A DNA stretch of 15,078 nt from Thermoflexales bacterium (GTDB lineage Bacteria; Chloroflexota; Anaerolineae; S140-20): positions 1-15,078 of the forward strand of contig WFUY01000156.1 in NCBI GenBank assembly GCA_015484715.1, written 5' to 3'. Positions 1-11,615 of the stretch are shown here, piece after piece. Under the pieces are notes generated by a model. That model was given only the letters and a program-made list of their open reading frames with translations. It did no database searches and had not been told where the DNA came from. How positions within the stretch are numbered: the first letter of the stretch is position 1; every line of letters starts with the position of its first letter. The translations under genes and the position numbers were made by a program.

Positions 1-2182
1 CCTCCCCCCGCCGCTTCACATCGGCCACGCCCAGGGGCACCAGGTACTCCTCCTCCGGCAGCGGCCCCGTCTCCAGGTAGAGCAGCTTGTTCTCGAAGAA
101 GAGGACAGGGTTGTTGGAGCGGATGGCGGCTTTGAGCAGCCCCTTGGCGTCGTAGGGGGTCGAAGGAGCGACGATGATGAGGCCGGGGATGCCCATCAGC
201 AGCGCCTCCCAGCTCTGGGAGTGCTGGGCCGCCATGCCGATGCCCGCCCCGCCGGGCGTGCGCACCACCAGAGGGAGCCGGTACTGTCCTCCCGACATCA
301 GCCGCAGCTTGGCCGCCTGGTTCACCAGGGGGTCCATGCAGGTCGTCAGGAAGTCGCTGAACATAATCTCGGCCACCGGGCGCATCCCCGTCATCGCGGC
401 ACCGACGGCGGACCCGACGATGGCGTACTCGCTGATGGGCGTGTCCATCACCCGCCGGGGGCCGAACCGCTCCTGAAGCCCGGCGGTGACGGCGAAGTAG
501 CCGCCGCTGGAGACGTCCTCGCCCAACAGGTAGACCCGCTCGTCCCGTTCCATCTCCTCGGCCAGCGCCTCCCAGAGGGCGCGGGAGACGGTGGCCTGGC
601 GGGTGGGGCCGGTGGGCGGCTTGGCCGGGCGGTAGAGATGGACCGGCTCCGGCGCGTAGACGACGGCCTCAACGTCGTCAAAGGTGGGCTCCGGACTCTC
701 CTGGGCGAAGCGCCACGCCTCCTCCACCTGCCGACGGGCCTCCTCGGCCAGCGCCCGGTAGCCCTCCTCGTCCAGGAGGCCCGCTTCCAGGAGGGCAGCT
801 TTCCAGCGGGCGATGGGATCGCGCTCCCGCCAGCGGGCGATCTCCTCTTCGCTCCGGTAGCGGGCCGACTCCCCCTCGGTGTGGCCGCTGATCCGGTAGG
901 TGAGGGCCTCGATCAGGGTCGGCCCCCCGCCCCGTCGGGCCTGGGCTACCGCCTCCCGCACGGCCTGGTAGACCTGCCAGACGTCGTTGCCGTCCACCTG
1001 GCATCCGGGGATGCCGTAAGCGGCAGCTTTGTCGGCCAGCCGAGCCACCCGCGTCGTCCGCTGAGTGGGGGTGAACTCGGCGTACTGGTTGTTCTCGATG
1101 AAGAAGACGACCGGGAGGTCGAAGACGGCGGCGAAGTTGACCGCCTCGTGGAACATCCCCTGGGCGACGGCCCCATCCCCCAGGAAGGTGAGGGCGACCT
1201 GGCGGCTGCCCCGCCGTTGGGCGGAGAGGGCGGCTCCGATGGCGATCAGGCCGGCCGCGCCGACGATGCCGTTGGCCCCCAGCGCACCGACGGCGGCCTC
1301 GGTGACGTGCATCGGTCCGCCCAGCCCCCGGCAGAGGCCGGTGCGCTTGCCCAGGATCTCGGCCATCATCGCCTTCAGGTCGGCCCCCTTGGCCAGCATG
1401 TGGCCGTGGCCCCGATGGGTGGTGGTGATGTAGTCGTCGGCCCGCAGGGCGAAGCAGGCCCCCACGGCGCAGGCCTCCTGGCCGATGGAGAGGTGCAGCG
1501 CCTCCGAGGGAACCTGCCCGGCGGCGAAAGCCTGGGCCAGCCGCTCCTCGAAGGCCCGGATGAGGAGCATGCGCCGCAGCATCTCCCGCTTGAGGGCCGC
1601 CTCGTCCTTCGGCAACCCCTGGTCCCGGTAGCGGATCGCCTCCTCGGCCACCGCCTCCTGGAGGGGGATCAGGTGGCGGGAGAGGGCCTCGAAGTCCACC
1701 GAGACAGGCCGGCGCCGACGGGGCCACAGCCGGGACAGCAGCCCACGCCGGCGGGCTCCTGTTGGCTGCTCCCGGATGATCATCTCCTCGTAGCCCAACT
1801 CCCGCAAGACCTGGGGGTAGAGCTGAAAGGCGGGTTTGACGGCGGGGAGGAGGGCCAGGGCCTTGGGAACGGAGCCCCGGGCGATGACTTGGCGGGTGGC
1901 GATGGCCCGAGGAACGTTGAGCCGACCGTGCCAGAAGCGATGGGCGGTGTCGGCCGACTGGATCATCTCGACGTGGGCGGGCAGGTCCGACTCCCCGAAG
2001 GTCCAGCGGATGGGGGCGCTCCGCATGTCCACGGTCACCACCCCGTCGGGGTCGGTGAAGCGGAAGCGGACGACCAGCCGGCCCTCGAGGAGCCGCTCGG
2101 CGATGGCCGGATCGGCGCTGATCCGGCGGAAGAGAGCGTCCAGAACCTCGTAGAGGTGGTCGGTATCGCGGAAGACGGCCAT
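1..2182 (-). CDS. Fused thiamine-diphosphate 2-oxoacid dehydrogenase E1 (alpha+beta) with N-terminal SCP2-like domain, partial (C-terminus beyond window)
   Basis: The visible part is 727 codons, open without a stop to the left edge. Residues 1-132 resemble an SCP2 sterol/lipid-carrier domain (for example FRFTDPDG and FWHGRLNVPRAIATRQVIARG). Residues 141-160 form an arginine-rich linker. Residues about 195-505 are an E1 alpha subunit with THRGHGHMLAKG (His256), GLCRGLGGPMH, LGANGIVG and the thiamine-diphosphate motif GDG (335-337) followed 26 residues later by NN (364-365). Residues about 528 onward are E1 beta, with GEDVSSGGYF, RVMDTPISE and AQHSQSWEALLMGIPGL. E1 decarboxylates a 2-oxoacid and passes the acyl group to lipoyl-E2 in a cytoplasmic complex. 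The alpha motifs are closest to acetoin/pyruvate-type enzymes, but the substrate cannot be fixed and no E2 or E3 gene is in the window. The start is ATG at 2182, preceded by GGGGAAAGG. Its own promoter lies at 2247-2275. The alpha/beta assignment is firm; SCP2 is a pattern-based call. Confidence 0.92.
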   Translation of the reverse strand, partial: MAVFRDTDHLYEVLDALFRRISADPAIAERLLEGRLVVRFRFTDPDGVVTVDMRSAPIRWTFGESDLPAHVEMIQSADTAHRFWHGRLNVPRAIATRQVIARGSVPKALALLPAVKPAFQLYPQVLRELGYEEMIIREQPTGARRRGLLSRLWPRRRRPVSVDFEALSRHLIPLQEAVAEEAIRYRDQGLPKDEAALKREMLRRMLLIRAFEERLAQAFAAGQVPSEALHLSIGQEACAVGACFALRADDYITTTHRGHGHMLAKGADLKAMMAEILGKRTGLCRGLGGPMHVTEAAVGALGANGIVGAAGLIAIGAALSAQRRGSRQVALTFLGDGAVAQGMFHEAVNFAAVFDLPVVFFIENNQYAEFTPTQRTTRVARLADKAAAYGIPGCQVDGNDVWQVYQAVREAVAQARRGGGPTLIEALTYRISGHTEGESARYRSEEEIARWRERDPIARWKAALLEAGLLDEEGYRALAEEARRQVEEAWRFAQESPEPTFDDVEAVVYAPEPVHLYRPAKPPTGPTRQATVSRALWEALAEEMERDERVYLLGEDVSSGGYFAVTAGLQERFGPRRVMDTPISEYAIVGSAVGAAMTGMRPVAEIMFSDFLTTCMDPLVNQAAKLRLMSGGQYRLPLVVRTPGGAGIGMAAQHSQSWEALLMGIPGLIIVAPSTPYDAKGLLKAAIRSNNPVLFFENKLLYLETGPLPEEEYLVPLGVADVKRRGE

Positions 2183-2246: not shown

Positions 2247-2275
2247 AGCTTACCACAAGCGTCAACAGGTGTCAA
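2247..2275 (-). promoter_or_regulatory. Putative sigma70-type promoter of the E1 gene
   Basis: On the minus strand a perfect -35 TTGACA (2275-2270) is followed by a 17-bp spacer and a weak -10 TAAGCT (2252-2247). This would give a leader of roughly 60 nt before the ATG at 2182. A second TTGACG lies 10 bp after the first. The -35 box sits 2 bp from the target duplication of the inserted element at 2289-2405. Confidence 0.5.
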
Positions 2276-2277
2276 TG

Positions 2278-2288
2278 GACAACGAAAG
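2278..2288. repeat. Target-site duplication, copy 1 (GACAACGAAAG)
   Basis: This 11-bp sequence is repeated exactly and in the same orientation at 2406-2416, directly on the other side of the inverted-repeat element 2289-2405. Confidence 0.8.
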
Positions 2289-2405
2289 CGGTGATTACCC
2301 ACAAGTGAGCGAGAATGCACGAATGAGGCGGTCCTTAATTCGTGTATTCGTGCCCCATTCGTGGACGGCTCGTCTCCCTATCTCCAGAGATATGGGTAAT
2401 CACCG
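2289..2405. mobile_element. MITE-like element, copy A (117 bp)
   Basis: The ends form a perfect 13-bp inverted repeat, CGGTGATTACCCA at 2289-2301 and its complement at 2393-2405. The flanks are an exact 11-bp direct repeat (GACAACGAAAG), as expected for a transposition target duplication. Inside, GAATGCACGAAT (2313-2324) can pair with ATTCGTGTATTC (2338-2349) around a 13-nt loop, and ATTCGTG recurs a third time. It has no coding capacity. A diverged copy lies at 11466-11615. Among known families, duplications of 10-12 bp are reported for parts of the IS4 family and 8-11 bp for IS1, but I cannot assign a parent. It separates the terminator of the secreted-protein gene from the E1 promoter. Confidence 0.8.
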
Positions 2406-2416
2406 GACAACGAAAG
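2406..2416. repeat. Target-site duplication, copy 2 (GACAACGAAAG)
   Basis: Exact copy of 2278-2288. On the minus strand it reads CTTTCGTTGTC and forms the T-rich tail of the terminator at 2414-2442, so the element seems to have inserted just behind that terminator. Confidence 0.8.
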
Positions 2417-10673: not shown

Positions 10674-11384
10674 TCACTCCTGAAACGATGATACGCCTGG
10701 CCATTCGTCATCCTGATCCTCGGCCCAGGCGTGCCGTCCGACCATCGGCACGAAGATGACCGGGACGAGCTGCTCCTGCACCCACTGCTTGCCCTTTCGG
10801 GTGAGCCGGATCAGCATCTGGTCGTAGCGATTGCCCACGGGGCCGACAAGGCGTCCCCCGTCGGCCAGTTGTTGGCGAAGGGGGAGGGGGATCGTGGGAG
10901 GGGCAGCGGTCATCAGGATGGCATCGAAGGGGGCTTCCTCCGGCCAGCCGGCGCTCCCATCGCCCACCCGGATGGACACATTTCGGTATCCCAGCTCGGC
11001 CAGGCGGCGGCGGGCTCTCTCGGCTAGAGAGGCATAACGCTCGATGCTGTAGACCCAGCGGGCCAGCAGACTCAAGATGGCGGTCTGGTACCCTGAACCG
11101 GTACCTATCTCCAGGACTTTCTCATCTCCCTTGAGCTGTAGGGCGGCTGTCATATAGGCCACGATGTAGGGCTGGGAGATGGTCTGGCCTTCACCGATGG
11201 GCAGGGGGCGATCCTCGTAGGCGAGGTGACGGCGATCTTCGGGGACGAAGAGGTGGCGAGGCACCCGTCGCATCGCCTCAATCACCCGTTCGTCCCGGAT
11301 CCCCCGGGCGACGATCTGCTGCTGGACCATCCGCTCGCGGCGGGCCGCGTAGTCATGGGCACGCATCCCTCGATTGGGCCCCAT
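10674..11384 (-). CDS. pcm: Protein-L-isoaspartate O-methyltransferase
   Basis: The product has 236 residues, slightly longer than the usual 205-230. It repairs isoaspartyl residues in damaged cytoplasmic proteins using S-adenosylmethionine. The signature GEGQTISQPYIVAYMT (64-79) holds the substrate-binding segment. Motif I, LEIGTGSGYQTA (91-102), binds the cofactor. FDAILMTAAP (153-162) and FVPMVGRHAW (211-220) are typical later motifs. The ATG at 11384 is preceded by AAAGGCGGAACAGG; an alternative ATG at 11366 has its purine tract too close. It is first in the operon with the receiver, thioesterase and cyclase genes, behind an extended -10 promoter at 11425-11433. Confidence 0.95.
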   Translation of the reverse strand: MGPNRGMRAHDYAARRERMVQQQIVARGIRDERVIEAMRRVPRHLFVPEDRRHLAYEDRPLPIGEGQTISQPYIVAYMTAALQLKGDEKVLEIGTGSGYQTAILSLLARWVYSIERYASLAERARRRLAELGYRNVSIRVGDGSAGWPEEAPFDAILMTAAPPTIPLPLRQQLADGGRLVGPVGNRYDQMLIRLTRKGKQWVQEQLVPVIFVPMVGRHAWAEDQDDEWPGVSSFQE

Positions 11385-11424: not shown

Positions 11425-11433
11425 ATTATAACA
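11425..11433 (-). promoter_or_regulatory. Extended -10 promoter element of the pcm operon
   Basis: The minus strand reads TGTTATAAT, a perfect TGnTATAAT extended -10, about 40 bp upstream of the pcm ATG. No good -35 is found at 16-18 bp, which is acceptable for extended -10 promoters. The edge of MITE copy B lies about 33 bp further upstream. Confidence 0.5.
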
Positions 11434-11465: not shown

Positions 11466-11615
11466 TGGTGATTACCCACACCTGAGCGAGCGAATGGGCC
11501 ATAGCGGGCCGTCTATGAATTTTCCCGAATGCACGAATGGGGGGGCCTAACTCGTGTATTCGTGCCCTATTCGTGGACGGCTAATCTCTCACCCCCAAGA
11601 TATGGGCAATCATCA
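11466..11615. mobile_element. MITE-like element, copy B (about 150 bp, diverged)
   Basis: It begins TGGTGATTACCCACA and ends TATGGGCAATCATCA, an inverted repeat of 13 bp with two mismatches and the same outer sequence as copy A. It is in the same orientation as copy A and shares GAATGCACGAATG (11527-11539), CTCGTGTATTCGTGCCC (11551-11567) and ATTCGTGGACGGCT. Relative to copy A it has about 35 extra bases after TGAGCGAG. The flanks are GTGGGGTCT (11458-11466, overlapping the outer base) and GTGGGGGGTCT (11616-11626), probably a target duplication altered by a two-base change in a G run. It has no coding capacity. Confidence 0.7.

Follow-up and report, generated by a model that had tools for sequence, protein, structure and literature searches.

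The element in the window and its surroundings

The window, that is, the whole stretch of 15,078 bp that was analysed, belongs to contig C156 of the draft genome G000 (2.99 Mb, 588 contigs, 70.6% complete). The gene for an E1 dehydrogenase component runs off one edge and lies downstream of a predicted TTGACA-17-TAAGCT promoter, beside which a short element with inverted ends was found (Table 1). Its terminal repeats, 13 bp each, are complementary without mismatch. The flanking repeat is 11 bp long, or 12 bp if positions 2277 and 2405 are included, and its edge bases may be chance matches. The original prediction was thus exact in each value: an element of 117 bp, inverted ends of 13 bp without mismatch and a flanking duplication of 11 bp. 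The 12-bp internal stem that it described is present as well, but it is imperfect, with one G.T pair. That the stem may give the element a structure, as had been suggested, was examined by folding positions 2278-2416 as single-strand DNA, which gave z = -5.36. The 12-mer GGTGATTACCCA was found at 4 places in the window when up to 2 mismatches were allowed, compared with an expectation of 0.72, and 1 of 200 shuffles reached 4.

Table 1. Coordinates of the features at the two elements of the window.
Feature	Positions	Strand	Remarks
E1 dehydrogenase component gene, off the window edge	1..2182	-	PF00676 (E 1.2e-84), then transketolase pyrimidine domain PF02779
Predicted -10 TAAGCT	2247..2252	-	spacer 17
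Predicted -35 TTGACA	2270..2275	-	starts 14 bp from the GGTG edge of the MITE
Target duplication GACAACGAAAG, promoter side	2278..2288	+	sequence
MITE copy, 117 bp	2289..2405	+	GGTG-to-CACC span 115 bp against 153 bp typical; ~38 bp absent internally
Left terminal inverted repeat CGGTGATTACCCA	2289..2301	+	sequence
Internal palindrome arm GAATGCACGAAT	2313..2324	+	sequence and fold
Internal palindrome arm ATTCGTGTATTC	2338..2349	+	one G.T pair with the GAATGCACGAAT arm
Right terminal inverted repeat TGGGTAATCACCG	2393..2405	+	sequence
Target duplication GACAACGAAAG, distal copy	2406..2416	+	sequence
TATAAT 5' of the PCMT gene (10674-11384, minus)	11425..11430	-	adjoins the degenerate copy
Second, degenerate MITE copy	11467..11614	+	ends with 0 and 2 mismatches

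The second copy, which had also been mentioned, is real though degenerate. It has a flanking repeat with 8/9 matches, placed 3 bases inward of one end. The -35 of the PCMT promoter next to it is weak (at best 8/12 at offset 12 or 13) and falls under the threshold of the counts given below.

A high-copy family in the genome

Searched with the DNA of the window copy, G000 yielded 117 matching pieces, a figure that includes fragments and both strands. Allowing up to 3 mismatches, the 15-bp end ATATGGGTAATCACC matched at 231 places against 8 for the reversed pattern, which rules out a chance origin of the inverted ends in the window. These end matches were sampled as 60 loci and 40 regions, several of them overlapping and with at least one listed place (C23:4493) left out. 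From the fetched places, ends 50-400 bp apart were paired into 73 non-overlapping candidates, 64 of which align well to the family sequence; the other 9 scored below 60 and were excluded from the promoter counts. For most members the GGTG-to-CACC span is 153 bp, and the interior is a palindrome built of CACGAAT words.

Target duplications, searched from 6 bp upward, measure 7-12 bp with a mode of 9. A recognisable duplication is absent in 10/63 elements of G000 and in 13/37 paired elements elsewhere. The family members are short and non-coding, have inverted ends and duplications, are dispersed in many copies with differing flanks, and share their ends with an autonomous element; a near-empty site was also found (see below). 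The feature in the window is therefore a MITE copy, as had been claimed, and with 64 members collected in G000 the family extends well beyond the two copies of the window. What the original prediction overlooked was promoter-directed insertion.

The 40 nearest genomes returned for G000 share only the class with it. A palindrome with the same core words, CCACGAAT..CACGAAT..ATTCGTG..ATTCGTGG, recurs at L102, L105, L110, L113, L114 and other loci in class genomes (G008, G009, G012, G025 and G026). In the stretches read, these palindromes have no GGTGATTACCCA ends, and they are a separate repeat.

Predicted promoters beside the elements of G000

Promoters were scored as TTGACA-(16-18)-TATAAT with at least 9/12 matches, and all are consensus predictions. 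Three of 128 flanks in G000 were too short to score. Among the 125 others, 51 have a sigma70-type promoter with its -35 at offset 11-16 from the element, compared with a mean of 0.47 (maximum 2 in 200) after dinucleotide-type shuffling. When the same 125 flanks were stacked without selection, TTGAC started at offsets 12-15 in 37 of them (9, 18, 6 and 4, respectively) and TATAAT mostly at 36 (10 flanks). Apart from the two bases at the element edge, enrichment in the flanks is strongest at the TT and the G of the -35.

The position is narrow. In successive 10-bp bins going outward over 124 flanks, the promoters numbered 3, 57, 1, 3, 0, 2, 3, 2, 0, 1, 1 and 1, while the controls totalled 1 for displaced flanks (121 flanks) and 8 for inward-pointing promoters. 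At least one end has a promoter at offset 9-18 in 51 of the 63 scorable elements, and 12 of the 63 have none on either side. Searched to 40 bp, promoters were found on the left only in 25 elements, on the right only in 18, on both sides in 9 and on neither in 12. Oriented insertion was considered and dropped, as 25 left against 18 right gives a binomial p of 0.36. Open reading frames behind the promoters gave no clear separation of the flanks (36/48 promoter flanks against 43/66 others).

At locus L022, a newer element and an older inverted-repeat end both adjoin one and the same 12-bp sequence, which suggests two insertions at a single promoter. At L075, L093, L211 and L054, elements or single ends stand in tandem, about one target duplication apart, which suggests repeated hits at one place.

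Occurrence in other genomes and anchoring to the -35

The 12-mer GGTGATTACCCA is present in 181 of 396 genomes of the class, many of them with 1-2 matches, and is enriched in several (G085 44, G065 40, G186 29 and G218 26). MITE interiors vary by genome and consist of CACGAAT, CGCAGAG or TGTCATTGCGAGC words. Counting flanks of at least 45 bp, a promoter at offset 11-16 was found in 60 of 160 unique flanks from 25 class genomes other than G000. Shuffled flanks (160 rows) gave a mean of 1.36 and a maximum of 5, and windows displaced from 11-16 gave 0-3 promoters. One duplicate flank (L220, identical to L158) was removed for the count of 60/160 and retained in the offset-distribution, correlation and shuffle tallies. 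Seven of the 25 genomes contributed 1-2 flanks each and were pooled, with a promoter in 7/18 flanks. No promoter flank at 11-16 was found in G230, G277, G286, G048 and G386 (5-6 of the genomes outside this pool), and 18 of 37 scorable paired elements outside G000 have no 9/12 promoter at offset 9-18 on either side. Several promoter-less elements, in G000 and elsewhere, have weaker predicted promoters. Of 400 phylum genomes searched, 7 contain GGGTAATCACC-N11-14-TTGAC, 4 of them lying outside the class, and none contains the reversed pattern.

Outside G000, and with one duplicate counted, the -35 starts at offset 12 (23 flanks), 13 (29), 14 (10) or 15 (2). The distance from the GGTG/CACC edge is mostly 12-14 with a mode of 13, a mode of about 11 if the two outer bases are counted as element. 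Among 85 strong promoters, the correlation of offset with spacer length is -0.02 for the -35 and 0.50 for the -10. Since only the -10 offset tracks spacer length, it is the -35, and not the -10, that sets the position of the element. The gap between duplication and -35 is 1-3 bp in 54 of the 59 cases having both a duplication and a promoter.

For one copy in G186 (L280), the orthologous locus of G218, 78% identical, lacks the element and has one stretch resembling the target duplication beside TTGACA (ATCTAATCT against ATCCATTCT, 7/9). Since the two genomes diverge further upstream, this is a near-empty and not a perfect empty site. Another core promoter, TTGACATAGAACAAATGTGCGATTATAAT, which we take to be LexA-box-like, is conserved in four related genomes (L144, L335, L336 and L337) with different insertions upstream. 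G218 has a GGTGATTACCCA-type element there and G186 a damaged one of this type. In G364 the insertion lies 15 bp upstream and has ends that look ISKra4-like when compared by eye with L331, and in G342 a TAACTATTCAG-ended element stands next to the divergent promoter. This lexA-like locus was rejected as a clean empty site because the relatives carry other insertions there.

The insertion sequence with the same ends

A full insertion sequence (IS) with the ends of the MITE was found in other class genomes and none in G000, a metagenome-assembled genome (MAG) of 70.6% completeness in which no relative of the transposase was found. The same 12-bp ends bound L131 of genome G088 (1449 bp, one intact ORF, -35 at 13), L132 (1382 bp, interrupted ORF, -35 at 12) and L133 (1481 bp, interrupted ORF). 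The GGTGATTACCCA-ended IS is thus 1.4-1.5 kb long and encodes a DDE transposase of about 440 aa. Among 8000 proteins scored, 2121 are relatives of the L131 protein at E ≤ 1e-5; in the 120 listed, the names, where given, are mostly 'hypothetical protein'. L131-type relatives occur in 17/396 class genomes at E ≤ 1e-20.

Among named genomes, one scan detected 22 loci with a full-length or partial IS, mostly in Chloroflexota MAGs, with one in a Sumerlaeota and one in a Rubrobacter MAG. Not all 22 are independent, since several are the same records as loci sampled from the class genomes. Seven have a 9/12 promoter at 11-16 (L175, L179, L183, L184, L185, L189 and L191), and the remaining 15 have a weaker promoter or none. 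There is none at 11-16 in L180, L181, L187, L192 and L196; some lineages may therefore have weaker targeting or have lost it. In L179, a full-length IS, promoters lie 14 and 13 bp from the ends and there is no matching duplication; it is possibly a recombinant of two copies. At L134:590-2748, two GGTGATTACCCA ends stand 2159 bp apart with a 559-aa ORF between them that has no Pfam match and is possibly cargo or a nested insertion.

The residues D117, D209 and E338 are invariant in 60/60 homologues, and the D-(91)-D-(128)-E spacing is within the IS4 range of D(60-110)D(100-150)E. The position of the YREK motif reads W331, R334, E338 and Q345, that is W(2)R(3)E(6)Q, also in 60/60. The IS4 model NF033590 matches all 60 aligned homologues weakly (E up to 1) and PF01609 matches 44 of them (E up to 1), while no Mutator-type model is among the families listed for the 60. 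Bit scores are far from the NCBIfam cut-offs, 27-30 for protein P0003 against 152-160 and 22.4 for L131 against 160; the best E-value among the IS4-model scores shown for other members is 2.1e-13. A search of solved structures gave a single match, E 0.024 to a coat protein, which was taken as noise. A parent of the IS1 family, to which the GGTGAT end and the 9-bp duplication had seemed to point, was discarded as no PF03400 was found in G000. Judged by the criteria of PMC2266710, the GGTGATTACCCA-ended family fits none of IS4, IS701, ISH3 and IS1634 exactly; among the families compared, it looks IS4-related and without a name.

Discussion

The explanation that we favour, at a probability of about 0.85, is that the MITE of the window was moved by a transposase acting in trans and encoded by an IS4-related, GGTGATTACCCA-ended IS, whose family prefers sites just upstream of sigma70-type promoters. 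Insertion, in either orientation, would duplicate about 9 bp (7-12); a gap of 1-3 bp would then separate the duplication from the -35, which would come to lie 12-15 bp from the inverted repeat. Targeting would act through recognition of the promoter, most likely of promoter-bound RNA polymerase holoenzyme, by way of sigma region 4 or the upstream region near -42. Landing upstream would spare the core promoter and the gene and would allow a high copy number.

The insertions analysed are existing ones that have already passed selection, none being fresh, and intergenic upstream regions tolerate insertions. Broad insertion followed by survival of only the harmless copies upstream of promoters would be one way to obtain the pattern. 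Selection alone, however, predicts no window of a few bases, and the -35 offset peaks at 12-14 (62/65 outside G000 in the 10-19 bin), while the 10-bp bins between 20 and 120 bp, a region in which insertions should do no more harm, hold 1-5 counts each. Together with L022, which looks twice hit at the same position, this makes survivorship improbable. The fixed spacing upstream of the -35 also resembles the placement of an activator, and in so numerous a family the inverted repeat could be a regulator binding site, with copies kept as activators of transcription. We consider this very unlikely, as many of the adjacent predicted promoters are near-consensus (11-12/12) and should need no activator, the promoter is faced by either end in the proportions given above, and some IS elsewhere and MITEs with different interiors obey the same spacing rule.

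In a variant compatible with the favoured explanation, RNA polymerase would not be needed and the transposase would recognise the TTGAC of the -35 in the DNA itself. This is a sizeable possibility, though a less likely route than the holoenzyme. Position tracks the -35 and not the -10, and the enrichment of its TT and G agrees with direct reading; yet a poor -35 sometimes stands with a good -10 at the fixed offset (TTGGTC-17-TATAAT, TTGCGT-17-TATAAT), as expected if whole promoters are targeted. Intergenic TTGAC is usually part of a promoter, so both routes fit.

Promoters are known targets of other elements. According to the available text of PMC3942029, TnGBS, ISLre2 and 13 IS of the ISKra4 group insert upstream of sigmaA promoters, TnGBS 15-17 bp from the -35 and the IS of the screen with the promoter 13-17 bp from the inverted-repeat junction. 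The same text proposes contact with the RNA polymerase initiation complex and treats this targeting as an atypical property of two Mutator-superfamily lineages (TnGBS/ISLre2, p-MULT 3, and the ISKra4 group, p-MULT 4). The transposases of those lineages have a signature motif with a conserved Asp between domains N1 and N2. Like these elements, the GGTGATTACCCA family has a DDE transposase and a fixed distance upstream of the -35, and like those with near-perfect inverted repeats it has promoters on either side. It differs in lying slightly closer to the -35 (mode 13 against 15-17 or 13-17) and in a transposase that matches IS4-type models only.

The shared target preference (PMC3942029, in its available text) could point to an ISKra4 or ISLre2 transposase as the mover of the MITE, and in a search that covered ISKra4 only, model matches were found in 22/60 class genomes, above the cut-off in 5. 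ISKra4 was nevertheless rejected as the parent, and the chance that either of these moved the element seems minimal. Seven of eight ISKra4 loci have no GGTGATTACCCA at ≤2 mismatches, and the eighth, L334, has two 2-mismatch matches that both lie within the matched gene stretch. The inverted repeats found in three of these loci have other sequences, G000 has no ISKra4 match, and GGTGATTACCCA ends directly bound the IS4-like gene. Comparison by hhalign of the transposase profile with six ISKra4 sequences gave a probability of 0.2%, hence no relation. As a separate observation, the last codons of an ISKra4-type transposase form the start or the end of many contigs of G033 and G038, which suggests that both genomes contain an ISKra4 element in high copy number.

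With the IS4 family, as the consulted part of PMC2266710 describes it, the GGTGATTACCCA IS shares a single-ORF DDE layout, the D/D/E spacing, a length of 1.4-1.5 kb and a duplication of about one helical turn. It differs in having WREQ where IS4 has Y(2)R(3)E(6)K and in scores far below the NCBIfam cut-offs. The criteria published there are YREK and duplications of about 10 or about 5 bp; the word 'promoter' has 0 occurrences in that paper (PMC2266710). IS701, ISH3 and IS1634 are likewise IS4-like with a varied YREK, and their models give weak matches to part of the 60 homologues, but their typical duplications are 4 bp, 4-5 bp and 5-6 bp, respectively (PMC2266710, same part), against 7-12 bp here. 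No report of a promoter-targeting IS of the IS4 type was found in the literature searched by titles and abstract openings, with subscription papers and ISfinder outside reach.

In yeast, Ty3 integrates at RNA polymerase III promoters. It is cited as an analogy for promoter targeting in the available text of PMC3942029 and shares with the GGTGATTACCCA family a fixed place next to the promoter, but it uses a eukaryotic retrotransposon integrase and is an analogy only.

The phenomenon itself is therefore known; what looks new is the lineage, together with its ends and its high-copy MITEs. Judged from the transposase sequence, promoter-upstream targeting here looks like an independent, IS4-related origin. 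We further propose, tentatively and at somewhat less than even odds, that within the IS4 superfamily a distinct family has acquired on its own the ability to dock on promoter-bound RNA polymerase, with insertion at about -45 to -37. Its MITEs would then have seeded many promoters in some Chloroflexota genomes, replacing the upstream activator region and sparing the core promoter.

An IS4-related enzyme with the same geometry suggests that unrelated bacterial transposons converge on promoters or their polymerase, and with the GGTGATTACCCA family there is now another kind of protein in which the determinant of targeting could be sought. Landing upstream of promoters also suggests how a MITE can pass 60 copies without destroying genes, and the ends of such MITEs are sequence-only pointers to promoters in uncultured bacteria.
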